DNA from: a virus
Length of the DNA stretch: 28,643 nt
Virus record (IMG/VR): IMGVR_UViG_3300005613_004103
Span: 1 to 28,643 of that record
Direction: 5' to 3' (one strand)
This document shows positions 2,164 to 7,152 of this stretch, piece by piece. A program made the position numbers and the translations under genes. The notes under the pieces are model-generated. The model did no database searches and was not told the DNA's origin. It saw only the letters and a program-made list of their open reading frames with translations. Positions within the stretch are counted from its first letter, which is position 1. Each line of letters starts with the position of its first letter.

Positions 2164-3282
2164 TCAAAGTTTAGATAAAACTTCCTTGTATATACTTTCA
2201 GCTATGGCTTTCATCATTAAAGGAGGAACCATTCTTCCAACTCTTTCTGTTTGTTGTGAATGTGTACCAGTCAAAATAAAATCATCTGGTAAAGATTGAA
2301 TTCTTTTGAGTTCTGGTATTGTCATTACTCGATCTTCTTTCCAATGAATCAGACCACCACTAGCTGTAAGTGTCGGAGAAGGTTGATACAAAGAAGCTCT
2401 TTTTGTATTAAAACAATGTCCTTTATCATGATAATTAGCACCCGTCAAAACTTTTTTCGGATTTTTAGGCATCTTTTTTACAACTTTTTCATATAGACCA
2501 CTCTTTAACATGTGATCAGTAAGTGACTTAACAATTTCTGGATCATTTTGAACACCATCAATAATGTCACTAATTGTTGTGGATTTATAAGTTGGTTGAG
2601 GAAATACTGTTGAGATTGTAAGTACATTCAACCCAACCTTTTCTGCAATATCTGAACGTACTGCAATGAAAATAAGTCTTTCTCTTCCTTGTCCAACTCC
2701 GTAGTTTGATGCTTTCATGACTCTTGATGTTACAAGATAACCAATATCTTCAAAGGCATTGGTGATCTTAGCATAATAAGTTTTAGCTTCACCAACAGTC
2801 AATCCTTTGACATTTTCACCAACAATAACTTTTGGTTGAATTTCACTAGCAACACGAATGAATTCAAAAAATAAATCTTCAATATTTTCTACTTTTTTAC
2901 CATCAGAATAATTTTTAGTCTTACCCCACCCATCCGAGTGTTTAGCACCTTCACCACGACACATTGATCCTGCAACAGAAAAAGCAGAACATGGAGGTGA
3001 TCCGTCAAATATATCTAACTCACCGACTTCAAGACCTACTTGATTTAAAAAATCCTTTCCTGTTAAAGTTTTAATATCATTAGGAAAAATATACGTTGAA
3101 GGATAATTTTGAGAATAAGTATTTCTTGCCTCTTCTACAAATTCGTTGATACAAAGAATTTTACCACCAGCAAGACGATAACCAGTAGAGGAACCACCTC
3201 CACCAGCAAATGTAGAAATGACAGTGAACTTTTTTTGAGCTTCACCATCATAAACATCTTGTAAATTATATGGAAATTTCAT
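2164..3282 (-). CDS. Cytosine-C5 DNA methyltransferase, candidate carboxymethyltransferase
   Basis: 372 aa with the C5-methyltransferase motifs in order: motif I STFAGGGGSSTGY (23-35), motif IV GSPPCS with catalytic Cys98, motif VI GENVKG (155-160), motif VIII QGRER (198-202), then a target-recognition region, motif IX RASLYQPSPTLTASGG (295-310) and motif X RVGRMVPPLMMKAIA (347-361). It should flip out and modify cytosine in double-stranded DNA. The odd feature is Arg350: motif X normally reads GN(A/S)V, and the Asn is nearly invariant, but here it is GRMV. From memory, changing this Asn to Lys in M.MpeI (N374K) lets that enzyme use carboxy-S-adenosylmethionine. The start overlaps the stop of the AsnB-like gene (ATGA, 3279-3282), and a CmoA-like gene lies just before that. 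No restriction endonuclease is adjacent. The methyltransferase fold is certain; carboxymethyl transfer is inference. Confidence 0.93.
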   Translation of the reverse strand: MKFPYNLQDVYDGEAQKKFTVISTFAGGGGSSTGYRLAGGKILCINEFVEEARNTYSQNYPSTYIFPNDIKTLTGKDFLNQVGLEVGELDIFDGSPPCSAFSVAGSMCRGEGAKHSDGWGKTKNYSDGKKVENIEDLFFEFIRVASEIQPKVIVGENVKGLTVGEAKTYYAKITNAFEDIGYLVTSRVMKASNYGVGQGRERLIFIAVRSDIAEKVGLNVLTISTVFPQPTYKSTTISDIIDGVQNDPEIVKSLTDHMLKSGLYEKVVKKMPKNPKKVLTGANYHDKGHCFNTKRASLYQPSPTLTASGGLIHWKEDRVMTIPELKRIQSLPDDFILTGTHSQQTERVGRMVPPLMMKAIAESIYKEVLSKL

Positions 3283-4094
3283 AATGGAAGTATACCTCGT
3301 CCAGTAGATGCATAGTCGGAAGCCAGATCCATGACTCTCTTCCTACCACGATTATTTAGCATTTTATCGTCCAACAATTTTTCAAACAAGTGATCTATAT
3401 TAGATCCTAATTGCAAATTAATATGTTCTTTTACATTGGTTATTCTAGAAAACTCTTCTTTAAACGCTTCTCTAACAACTTGTTTTTGTTTTGGTTTATT
3501 CAATTGATACCAATCATATTCAAAAAAATATTCACTTACTTGCTCATGATAGATATATGGATGTACTAGTTTTATATTTTTTTCTTTTGCTAGTTGTTCA
3601 ATCTGACGAAATCCAGTTACGTTATATGGCATGAAATATCTTTTTCTAAATCCATCAAATAATTCTTTTGGTTCCTTAAAATGAAGTATGGCCTTTTTAC
3701 TAACTCCATAATAACCATCGGCACCAATACCACTTAGAAGATATGACTCTTTAACATGAGGAAAAACATAAAGAAAGGGAAAAGTACATTCAAAATGTGT
3801 TTTTTTCCCACAATCATAATCCTTGACTAAACGAATAAAATCATCCCTAAGATTATTTGTAGGAACAACGATAGTATTACATTCCCATCCAAATTCTTTA
3901 CTCACTTCCTCAGCTTTGTTTGCATCATAAGACTTGTCACCTTCAAGATGAAATGTATATGCCTTAATCTTTTTACCAAGACGATGAGCAGAAAAACCAA
4001 GACTTAAACTGTCAACACCTCCAGACAACAAAATCCCCACATCATTTGTGGGGACTTCATTTTCAATAATGTTTGTCAGAATCTGATCGATCAT
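3279..4094 (-). CDS. AsnB-like PP-loop synthetase (amide-forming), no glutaminase domain
   Basis: 271 aa from ATG 4094, which overlaps the CmoA-like stop as ATGA; an upstream in-frame ATG at 4190 would overlap that gene by 100 bases and is less likely. The PP-loop LSGGVDS (residues 23-29) and the later LSGIGADGYYG motif match the synthetase domain of asparagine synthetase B, where the second motif is typically GEGSDExFGGY. Family members adenylate a carboxylate with ATP and displace AMP with an amine; beta-lactam synthetase relatives show that substrates vary. The N-terminal class II glutaminase domain of AsnB is absent, so the amine donor may be free ammonia or another amine. The gene sits between a CmoA-like enzyme and a C5 methyltransferase with overlapping ends on both sides. 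I infer a carboxymethyl group on a base as substrate. Housekeeping Asn synthesis is less likely for so reduced a protein. Confidence 0.85.
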   Translation of the reverse strand: MIDQILTNIIENEVPTNDVGILLSGGVDSLSLGFSAHRLGKKIKAYTFHLEGDKSYDANKAEEVSKEFGWECNTIVVPTNNLRDDFIRLVKDYDCGKKTHFECTFPFLYVFPHVKESYLLSGIGADGYYGVSKKAILHFKEPKELFDGFRKRYFMPYNVTGFRQIEQLAKEKNIKLVHPYIYHEQVSEYFFEYDWYQLNKPKQKQVVREAFKEEFSRITNVKEHINLQLGSNIDHLFEKLLDDKMLNNRGRKRVMDLASDYASTGRGILPL

Positions 4095-4786
4095 TTGATT
4101 GCAATCACACCAACAAACTGATGATTTCTCCAGAAGATCTGACAATCTTTGAAACCAGAACACCATATCATGGATTTTAATTCGTCCCAAGTATTTGGTT
4201 TCAGCATATCACGAAGTTCTTTTTCTTTATCCATAATTTGTTCAGCTGTAAATGTCTTCCTCTTGTAATCATAATGATTGAAAGTTAGAAGTTCTTGGAA
4301 AAACGCATTTTCACACATCAACTTCTCTGCAAAAATAAATGCACCACCTTCATTCAGACCTTCATAGATTTTATTGATTGTATCTTGACGAGTAGTCTTA
4401 GGCATGAACTGAAGAGTGAATAGTGAAGTAACTAAAGAACAGTTTTTAAACTCATAATTAGTCACATTACCTCTTACCCACTCAAGAAGAGCCCACGAAT
4501 AATCTTTACGAATTTCAGTATAACGTTCCTCTAAACTGTCATAAAAACTACCAGCAAGTTCAACACCAACGTACTGTGCATACTTACGATTTGGATTATT
4601 CTCAATAATCATTTTAGTAAGTTTACCAGTAGAACAACCTACATCAACAACTTTGGTGTGATCTTCTACAAAGTATCGAGAGAAAGAGACCGTATCTTCC
4701 AAGAGGTTAGAGTAACCTCTGATGGAACTATCAATATGATTGTCAAATCCTTCTGGAGAGTGAGCAAAAGAAAAATCGTATGTCAT
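4091..4786 (-). CDS. CmoA-like SAM-binding enzyme, candidate carboxy-SAM synthase
   Basis: 231 aa. The closest family I recognise is CmoA, which makes carboxy-SAM from SAM and prephenate. Matching blocks in order: RGYSNL (E. coli PGYSNI), VVDVGCSTGKLT as motif I (E. coli VYDLGCSLGAAT), SLFTLQFMPKTTRQDTINKI (E. coli NFTLQFLEPSERQALLDKI), YEGLNEGGAFIFAEK, YDYKRK (E. coli HDFKRA), and a C-terminal FVGVIAIK. By an ungapped alignment from memory, the E. coli Arg199 that holds the carboxylate of carboxy-SAM falls on Glu in DKEKELRD, with Lys and Arg close by, so the activity is not guaranteed. It starts three bases after the mazG stop, with AGGAGA about 11 bases upstream of ATG. It overlaps the AsnB-like gene by four bases. 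No CmoB-like tRNA transferase is in the window. Confidence 0.85.
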   Translation of the reverse strand: MTYDFSFAHSPEGFDNHIDSSIRGYSNLLEDTVSFSRYFVEDHTKVVDVGCSTGKLTKMIIENNPNRKYAQYVGVELAGSFYDSLEERYTEIRKDYSWALLEWVRGNVTNYEFKNCSLVTSLFTLQFMPKTTRQDTINKIYEGLNEGGAFIFAEKLMCENAFFQELLTFNHYDYKRKTFTAEQIMDKEKELRDMLKPNTWDELKSMIWCSGFKDCQIFWRNHQFVGVIAIK

Positions 4787-5282: not shown

Positions 5283-6449
5283 TTAAAACTTAAATCCCTC
5301 AAATGATTTTTTGGGTTTTTCATGATAATTATACTCTTCCTCTTGTCCAGAGTCAAGTATATCATCTTGTGCAGATTGTTCACAATCATATAATCTCATC
5401 TTTGCTCTATCAATACCAATGATGAATCTCTTATAAGTGGTTGGATCATTATAACGATTTTTAAGTTGTTTGACCATAATTTGTCCAAGTTCTTCAAGTT
5501 CATCTGTTTTGATAAGAGCAAACATAAGGTCGGCAGTAGCAGGAAGACCAAAGGATTCAGATGTATCAGTTAATTCAACATCAGATGAACCAAATCCACT
5601 TCTAGTCGTTTGTGTCGCGCTGACAATAGGAACATTTGCTTCAACAGCCAATCCACGAAGTTCTTCAGCAATAGCTTTAATGTAACTATATGAATTAACT
5701 GTACTGTTTCCACGATACCTTGATGATGCACAAATATTAAGATAGTCAATGAAAATAATATCAGGTCTGAAGGATTTCTTAAGAGCAAGTTCATTCAGAA
5801 GTGACTTGAAATGTCCAGAGTGAGCTGAAGCAGTTGGATACTCTTTGATGATTAAAGTACCTTGTGTCTTCTGAGAAAGATTATTAACTTTAGTCTCAAA
5901 TGTAGTTTTTGGTAACTCAATGATATCATGAATATTGACATTTAAAAGATTTGCATCAATACGTTCTGCAATCTTTTCTTCAGCCATCTCTAATGTAATG
6001 TATAGAACATTCTTATTTTGAAGAAGACAAGAAGACGCTACATGACACATAAACAAACTTTTGCCAACACCAGTATTATGAGAAGAAACTTGATTAGTAT
6101 AATACCTATGATTTGGATGATTTACATTAATATCAACAATAGGTATTTGTTTTCCAGTTTTAAACACACTACCAAGTTTATAACCATTCTTCGTTAGGAA
6201 ATGATTTGTCTTATATTTTTCATAAAGATGTGATGCTTTCATCCATCCAAAAGATGTTTCAAATAAATGATCGGCATTACATCTCACAGGTTCTCCACCA
6301 TCAACCTTTAAAATGTATTCATCATACATTCCTTTGTTGATAAAGAAATTAACTGGAACATATCCATCGGGCGAATCAACTTCTACTTCATATCCATTAT
6401 CAAGTAATGTTTTGATTTCAGCAATTGATGTTTCTTTTTCAATCCACAT
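5283..6449 (-). CDS. gp41 (C-half): Replicative helicase gp41, C-terminal half, with split-intein C-fragment
   Basis: 388 aa. Residues 1-125 are an intein C-fragment (block B-like CNADHLF, block F-like NHRYYTNQ, terminal VSSHN). Residues 126-388 are the DnaB-family helicase from TGVGKS onwards. Walker A Lys130, Walker B FIDYLN and a TQTTRSG motif lie in the helicase part. The N-half at 7136-7768 ends its extein with LNIALAG, so splicing would restore AG-TGVGKS exactly, with Thr as the +1 residue. The joined helicase would be about 457 aa, close to T4 gp41. The start lacks a good Shine-Dalgarno. No minus-strand promoter is obvious between it and the HNH gene, so transcription probably reads through from upstream. 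Without splicing neither half has a complete nucleotide-binding loop. Confidence 0.93.
   Translation of the reverse strand: MWIEKETSIAEIKTLLDNGYEVEVDSPDGYVPVNFFINKGMYDEYILKVDGGEPVRCNADHLFETSFGWMKASHLYEKYKTNHFLTKNGYKLGSVFKTGKQIPIVDINVNHPNHRYYTNQVSSHNTGVGKSLFMCHVASSCLLQNKNVLYITLEMAEEKIAERIDANLLNVNIHDIIELPKTTFETKVNNLSQKTQGTLIIKEYPTASAHSGHFKSLLNELALKKSFRPDIIFIDYLNICASSRYRGNSTVNSYSYIKAIAEELRGLAVEANVPIVSATQTTRSGFGSSDVELTDTSESFGLPATADLMFALIKTDELEELGQIMVKQLKNRYNDPTTYKRFIIGIDRAKMRLYDCEQSAQDDILDSGQEEEYNYHEKPKKSFEGFKF
6075..6449 (-). other. Split intein C-fragment, 125 residues
   Basis: This is codons 1-125 of the gp41 C-half, ending His124-Asn125 before Thr126. It carries block B (GEPVRCNADHLF) as well as the C-terminal blocks, which in canonical split inteins lie on separate fragments. 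The fragment is therefore much longer than the usual 35-45 residue C-piece and matches the rare atypical split class, in which the N-piece is about 16-25 residues. Confidence 0.88.
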
Positions 6450-6453
6450 TTTA

Positions 6454-6461
6454 TATAAATA
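6454..6461 (+). promoter_or_regulatory. T4-type late promoter for the HNH endonuclease
   Basis: Exact octamer TATAAATA, the sequence read by gp55-type late sigma factors, 22 bases before the HNH ATG on the plus strand. AGGGA lies about 8 bases before the ATG. The octamer is expected several times by chance in DNA this AT-rich, so placement is the main support. Confidence 0.6.
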
Positions 6462-6483
6462 ATCAGTAACAGGGACAGGGAAA

Positions 6484-7152
6484 ATGTTTAGTCAAATCTA
6501 TTCTAACCTATGCGAGAATAATAAGTCAAGGAAAGACGACTATAAAAAATATTCAGGACTACACGAACATCATATTGTTCCTAAACATATGGGAGGAACA
6601 GATGAAGATTGCAACCTTACATACTTGAATATTAGAGAACACATTATAGCACATTATTTACTTTGGAAAATTTATAAAAATCCAAATGATTTAAGATCTA
6701 TGAAAATGTTAGGAGCAAACTTGTCTCCACAACACAGAAAAATAACAGGAGAGTTTTGTAGGGATAATCAGATTGGTATATTTTCAATTCCAATAGAAGA
6801 AAGAAAAGAATGGATGTCTAAAGGAATAGAAACTCAAAAACAAGAATACTTACATAACAACACTAAAAACTTTTATTATTGGAGCACAGAGGAAGGAAGA
6901 AAAGAAAGAGCATCTCTTGGAGGAAAGAAGAGAGCATCAAAAGAATTTAATTACTGGGCATCAAATCAAGGAAGAAAGGAAAGAGCATCACTTGGAGGAA
7001 AAGCACACAAAGGTAAGAAGGTAATGCACTTACCAGGAACAAAAGGATGGAAAAGAATACTTCCAGAAGATGTTGATACTAAACTAGATGAAGGTTGGAA
7101 ATTTGGAACTGGAGAACCAGCACCAAACTCCAAAATCAAGAAATCTTCCTAA
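6484..7152 (+). CDS. HNH homing endonuclease inside fractured gp41
   Basis: 222 aa, and the only plus-strand gene in the window. The HNH signature is in residues 27-57 (HEHHIVPKHMGG, Asn44, then REHIIAHYLL). Two adjacent copies of YWxxxxGRKERASLGGK follow (about residues 131-173), probably DNA-binding elements. The C-terminus LPGTKGWKRILPEDVDTKLD resembles the DNA-contact tails of other phage HNH enzymes. It lies between the two parts of gp41. Its last 17 bases overlap the end of the gp41 N-half tail to tail, and its start is 34 bases from the divergent start of the C-half. It has its own late promoter octamer and Shine-Dalgarno. By family it should cut intein-less or intact gp41 alleles and spread the fractured locus; activity is inference. 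Confidence 0.9.
   Translation: MFSQIYSNLCENNKSRKDDYKKYSGLHEHHIVPKHMGGTDEDCNLTYLNIREHIIAHYLLWKIYKNPNDLRSMKMLGANLSPQHRKITGEFCRDNQIGIFSIPIEERKEWMSKGIETQKQEYLHNNTKNFYYWSTEEGRKERASLGGKKRASKEFNYWASNQGRKERASLGGKAHKGKKVMHLPGTKGWKRILPEDVDTKLDEGWKFGTGEPAPNSKIKKSS

Follow-up and report, generated by a model that had tools for sequence, protein, structure and literature searches.

A CmoA-CmoX-CmoY-like cassette in an uncultivated marine virus, predicted to make glycine-capped carboxymethylcytosine, and exchange of the ligase gene in its relatives

Synechococcus phage S-B43 modifies its DNA through the enzymes CmoA, CmoX and CmoY, a chemistry published in December 2025 by Yang et al. (PMC12783734). According to the text of that report, S-B43 CmoA makes carboxy-S-adenosylmethionine (Cx-SAM), and CmoX makes 5-carboxymethylcytosine (5cxmC) in the motif GC with an active site around Cys98 and Arg350. 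Wild-type CmoX accepts Cx-SAM only and not S-adenosylmethionine (SAM). CmoY ligates glycine in an adenosine triphosphate (ATP)-dependent reaction and needs glycine in vitro. S-B43 virion DNA is reported to contain 5-glycylcarboxymethyldeoxycytidine (5gcxmdC) and no 5-carboxymethyldeoxycytidine (5cxmdC), with modification estimated to affect 10% of C and 75% of GC sequences. A homologous three-gene cassette lies at positions 2164-4786 of the IMG/VR virus record IMGVR_UViG_3300005613_004103, a metagenomic contig whose 28,643 bases are called the window here.

The window carries the same three genes as S-B43 (MN018232), in the order cmoA, cmoY, cmoX on the minus strand, with the same lengths, ATGA overlaps and catalytic residues (Table 1). 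DNA identity over the cassette is 78.8%, and 10%, 20% and 18% of residues differ in CmoA (208/231 identical, 90.0%), CmoY (217/271, 80.1%) and CmoX (306/372, 82.3%), respectively. Because S-B43, S-B05 and RB11-B carry the same trio, the order and overlaps are not due to chance, and the overlaps annotated in S-B43 and RB11-B are identical to those of the window. An initial annotation of this DNA had described three genes joined by two ATGA overlaps in a fusion-like coupling. Both overlaps are present and suggest translational coupling; the genes themselves are separate and not fused. Upstream, a small hypothetical gene separates the pyrophosphatase gene of S-B43 from cmoA, whereas the MazG-like gene of the window stops 3 bases before cmoA. 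The genes 3′ of cmoX also differ between the two.

Table 1. Genes and gene overlaps of the window cassette
Feature	Position	Strand	Length (amino acids)	Remarks
cmoA	4091..4786	minus	231	Carboxy-SAM synthase homologue
cmoY	3279..4094	minus	271	Adenosine monophosphate-forming amide ligase, AsnB synthetase domain only; ATG start at 4094
cmoX	2164..3282	minus	372	Predicted DNA cytosine C5-carboxymethyltransferase
ATGA overlap cmoA/cmoY	4091..4094	minus		From sequence; also in S-B43 and 8/19 type I loci
ATGA overlap cmoY/cmoX	3279..3282	minus		From sequence; also in S-B43 and 17/17 type I loci with a cmoX match

The window genes are orthologues of those of S-B43, and the cassette very probably forms the same system, with 5-glycylcarboxymethylcytosine as its product. 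CmoA would convert SAM and prephenate to Cx-SAM. Cys98 of CmoX would then attack C6 of cytosine and the carboxymethyl group would go to C5 (at GC sites in S-B43), with Arg350 holding its carboxylate. CmoY would adenylate this carboxylate with ATP and join glycine to it, a mechanism proposed in PMC12783734, and the resulting base in phage DNA probably protects against host nucleases. By analogy, the window virus would share the chemistry, the amine (glycine), the GC site and a protective role in nature. The initial annotation had proposed the core of this route, from carboxy-SAM through 5cxmC to an amide, which agrees with what is described for the S-B43 orthologues, and had suggested a block of host restriction. 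HhaI resistance is reported for carboxymethylated DNA in the S-B43 study (PMC12783734), and a like role in nature would follow by extension.

The window ligase matches Pfam Asn_synthase (expect value, E, 2.1e-14) and gave no match to a glutaminase (GATase) domain in the Pfam search; the 271-amino-acid (aa) protein is without the N-terminal class II glutaminase of AsnB, as initially annotated. In a sequence search of PDB up to E 1, carbapenam synthetase CarA was the only match (E 0.008). The 21 best PDB matches of the predicted CmoY structure are Asn, beta-lactam and carbapenam synthetases. Among 19 other ligases of the CmoY type (type I, S-B43 included), 177 columns are invariant; the window agrees at 175, departing by I114V and D209E. 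This agreement and the predicted synthetase fold, with the S-B43 identities and the shared order and overlaps, make a glycine product likelier than a plain carboxamide. A TTG start at 4190, giving the 303-aa protein of the open reading frame (ORF) listing, was rejected: its 32 additional residues lie inside cmoA, with a 100-base overlap. The ATG at 4094 is preferred because the annotated S-B43 gene (271 aa) uses an ATG overlapping the cmoA stop. Some ligase searches used the 303-aa version, in which the Asn_synthase match (residues 50-162) falls within the 271-aa part.

CmoY could join a different amine or amino acid in the same pathway, and its 20% divergence from S-B43 CmoY gives this some room, but the nearly complete match to the type I consensus makes it unlikely. 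Use of free ammonia, which would yield 5-carbamoylmethylcytosine, is suggested by the AsnB-type synthetase domain and by a related ligase type, probably ammonia-using in view of its glutaminase domain, that occupies the same slot in other contigs. For the window this is very unlikely, as its ligase gave no match to a glutaminase and shares 80% identity with an enzyme that needs glycine in vitro. The initial annotation had named 5-carbamoylmethylcytosine "or another amide". The hedge covers the glycyl product, while the base named is probably wrong here and is predicted to suit the glutaminase-bearing sister type better than the window CmoY.

CmoX matches Pfam DNA_methylase (E 1.8e-52) and has S-B43 CmoX (PDB 8YF3) as its closest solved chain by sequence (E 9.5e-211). 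Nine checked residues are kept in the window: F25, E47, F48, D69, S95-P96-P97-C98 and R350. Arg350 stands where the HhaI-type 5-methylcytosine (5mC) methyltransferase has Asn304. C98 and R350 are kept in all 69 aligned full-length CmoX rows (the window, three named phages and 65 from fetched contigs). Raw numbering placed a Lys at position 350 of S-CRM01 CmoX; this was rejected, since an alignment that allows for the longer sequence gives Arg. Engineered M.MpeI N374K resembles CmoX in that a basic residue in a C5 methyltransferase permits Cx-SAM use, and differs in being engineered and in preferring CG sites (PMC12783734). That CmoX is an ordinary 5mC methyltransferase adjoining a CmoA that serves host tRNA modification would fit the role of bacterial CmoA in tRNA wobble modification (PMC12783734) and the matches of CmoX to generic C5 methyltransferase models, but is hardly credible given the retained SPPC and R350, the restriction of wild-type S-B43 CmoX to Cx-SAM, and the 80 related contigs, of which 68 have a cmoX match 3′ of cmoA and 12 stop 2 to 1,442 bases past cmoA, too early to tell.

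Several points weigh against the assignment of a glycine-capped, S-B43-like system. Experimental demonstration of the chemistry is confined to S-B43, and the window virus is known from a metagenomic contig alone. The CmoY model has a middling mean predicted local distance difference test score (74.8), with residues 125-137, 155-158, 224-231 and 267-271 below 50. CmoX residues 210-315, which presumably include target recognition, are its lowest region at 70% identity to S-B43 (86% and 91% in the rest), so a GC site is not assured for the window enzyme. CmoA matches TIGR00740 (E 2.8e-31, 109 bits) and PRK15451 (E 6.9e-27, 94.5 bits) without reaching their curated cut-offs of 193.3 and 285. Its Glu188 aligns with Arg199 of Escherichia coli CmoA, described as holding the Cx-SAM carboxylate (PMC3663124).

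CmoA also matches PDB 4gek (E 1.7e-25). Doubting it for the missing Arg199 was considered and rejected, and the loss was not counted against Cx-SAM synthesis, because S-B43 CmoA has Glu in this column yet is active, which suggests that the carboxylate is held by another route than in the E. coli enzyme. The CmoA proteins of RN05-S and S-CRM01 have the same Glu. Lys187 or Lys189 may perhaps serve instead in the window protein; Lys187 is invariant across the five phage CmoAs aligned. Glu replaces the E. coli Arg199 in the window (4091-4786) and in loci L001, L002 and L003, and Leu replaces Asn132 in the window CmoA.

Variants of cmoX were seen in related loci. Three (L067, L069 and L075) have two tandem cmoX paralogues after a ligase of the longer AsnB type (type II, below), perhaps for two target sites. 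The L067 paralogues are 81% and 70% identical to window CmoX and differ most in residues 210-315 (70% vs 50%). A same-order trio is found at 4950-7468 of L005 (Staphylococcus phage vB-SscS-F1); its C5 enzyme is 22% identical to window CmoX, with Gly at the R350 column and no SPPC in the alignment. This enzyme is either missed by a rule based on R350 or makes something else.

Relatives of the cassette were collected from IMG/VR, where 279 stretches matched the search pattern and 275 encode CmoA relatives; the best 80 of the 275 were kept. The slot between cmoA and cmoX holds a type I ligase in 19 of these contigs, a type II ligase in 48 and none in 5, with 8 not determinable at contig ends; these counts are not population frequencies, as the relatives were found with window CmoA and some are near-copies. 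A ligase lies 3′ of cmoA in 67 of the 72 typed loci, with an extra gene between the two in 5 (all type I), and cmoX directly follows cmoA in the other 5. A lack of conservation of the trio in related phages, named beforehand as grounds against the pathway, is not seen in these counts or in the cmoX matches given above. Grouped by slot class, CmoA has median identities to the window of 89.4-90.9% and CmoX of 81.7-85.2%, whichever ligase is present.

Type II ligases are mostly 463-465 aa, with 21.6-25.1% identity to window CmoY across the part that matches. They were first assigned by this weak match, and an MCGI start near the cmoA end was then found in all 48. GATase_6, GATase_7 and Asn_synthase domains are present in the one type II protein scanned. 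The type II ligase shares with CmoY its position between cmoA and cmoX and differs in having an added class II glutaminase, so that a plain amide is predicted as its product. A glutaminase-bearing ligase cluster is described in PMC12783734, where glutamine-derived ammonia was suggested and soluble enzyme was not obtained. Going by the description in that text, the type II slot ligase is like this A0A7T0Q3R0 cluster.

Other genes also occur in the slot. Five loci (L016, L030, L040, L064 and L090) encode, immediately ahead of cmoY, a protein of some 315 aa whose weak matches are ParB-like and SbnI-like; on contigs that include cmoA, its gene sits between cmoA and cmoY. ParBc proteins without known role are reported to occur near CmoX (PMC12783734). 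In L028, the ORF between cmoA and cmoY (5801-7147) encodes 448 aa and weakly matches HNH endonucleases.

The ligase gene has been swapped repeatedly within this slot. The cmoA tree (76 rows) requires at least 14 changes of slot state, and its well-supported branches force no fewer than 8 for type I and 8 for type II. For the cmoX tree (66 rows) the minimum is 13, with 10 or more (type I) and 8 or more (type II) forced. The trees were made by a 'quick' method, and recombination within the flanking genes could inflate these counts. Shuffled labels need on average 24.4 (cmoA tree) and 22.9 (cmoX tree) changes, so inheritance also contributes to the slot state.

Eight pairs with different slot states, picked after the tree was seen, were compared; for a ninth pair, in which both members are type I, the inserts were compared. 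In all eight, the alignable block ends at most 13 bases from the last cmoA sense codon and resumes at most 2 bases from the cmoX start. The cleanest pair, L060 (type I) and L050 (type II), shares 99.4% identity across the 5,061 bases ahead of the slot and 98.2% across the 3,370 that follow it. For L028 (type I) and L025 (type II) the values are 99.7% over 2,560 bases and 92.1% over 1,138, and for RB11-B (type I) and RN05-S (no ligase) 95.8% over 6,697 and 91.9% over 3,317. Chimeric assembly was considered as the source of the pattern and may underlie it in any single contig, but the pattern recurs in all eight pairs, and one pair consists of two named phages, RB11-B with the ligase and RN05-S without it. 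The records of these two phages name Synechococcus MW02 as the source. A swap of the ligase only is weakened by seven of the eight pairs, in which the cmoX side (88.5-94.5%) is less alike than the cmoA side (95.2-99.7%) by more than 2 points. In L070/L051 likeness is back at 99.4% only past cmoX; the ligase may therefore carry some of cmoX along when it moves.

With moderate confidence, the slot is read as a fast-exchanging 'cap' locus in which a glycine ligase is replaced by a glutamine-dependent amidotransferase or is lost among closely related marine phages, while the carboxymethyl handle is kept and the final base switches. The swap would alter the DNA base among 5-glycylcarboxymethyl-, 5-carbamoylmethyl- and bare 5-carboxymethyl-cytosine, and such switching is plausibly under selection from host enzymes specific for one cap or another. 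The exchange supplies nearly matched pairs in nature, such as L060 and L050, between which the capping gene is the main difference over the compared stretch. Such pairs would let the cap's own role in evading host defences be tested apart from that of the carboxymethyl mark.

The window brings an uncultivated marine virus within the range of a DNA hypermodification pathway that has been proven by experiment. The initial annotation reached most of this pathway from sequence alone and overestimated its novelty, as the S-B43 system was already published. With the chemistry known from S-B43, the part that looks new is the apparently exchangeable cap gene. Repeated exchange of the ligase was not found in print in a search that leaves out most subscription journals. 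In the main text of PMC12783734, 'swap' and 'horizontal' are absent, and 'exchange' and 'recombination' concern methods. Among the papers listed, no second one on natural 5cxmC was found by title and abstract start, with most subscription journals outside the search.

A search of 50,697 phage records gave 69 with a match to window CmoA, 57 to the ligase (303-aa version) and 347 to CmoX. Of the CmoX matches, 341 are below 60% identity, an unsorted set that may mix carboxymethyltransferases and ordinary methyltransferases. Synechococcus phages RN05-S and S-CRM01 are like the window in having cmoA then cmoX with R350 kept, and differ in having no ligase between them; neither ligase type was found in their records at E 1e-5. 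Their pathway is predicted either to end at 5cxmC or to involve an enzyme not yet recognised. In Erwinia phage pEa_SNUABM_5 cmoA adjoins cmoY, and the CmoX match is at 30,172-32,106 of the record. In Streptomyces phage TurkishDelight two ParB-like genes are followed by cmoX, a type II ligase gene and cmoA, in this order. Loci L095, L096, L097 and L098 encode CmoY homologues about 50% identical to window CmoY, with no cmoA or cmoX match within their 4.3-6.8 kb stretches.

The window virus is marine and cyanophage-like. Bases 1-25000 match 174 phage records, by name 109 Synechococcus, 48 Cyanophage, 12 Prochlorococcus and 5 Marine, and the best-matching named records are Synechococcus phages RN05-S and RB11-B. 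T4-like replication genes in the window include a polymerase, clamp loader, UvsX, DnaB-like helicase and SbcC-like subunit.

Two of these genes are split. The gp41-type DnaB helicase is in two pieces (7789-7136 and 6449-5283, minus strand), split at the Walker A motif. The first piece ends in ALAG plus a 16-residue tail beginning with Cys, and the second begins with 125 residues ending SSHN, followed by TGVGKS. The arrangement resembles an intein with an atypical split that leaves its N part very short. A homing-endonuclease-like ORF (6484-7152, plus strand; phrog_655, E 2e-16) lies between the pieces. None of the papers listed in the literature searches concerns this helicase split-intein case. 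The helicase is a single gene in RN05-S and RB11-B; that of S-B43 has no insert at the Walker A split, and its annotated reading frame is without the N-terminal part. The DNA polymerase gene is likewise in two pieces (12073-10604 and 9884-8766, minus strand). The intervening ORF (10575-9856, minus strand) has a DUF559 match and weak matches to HNH and homing endonuclease families. In RN05-S and RB11-B the DNA polymerase is a single gene.

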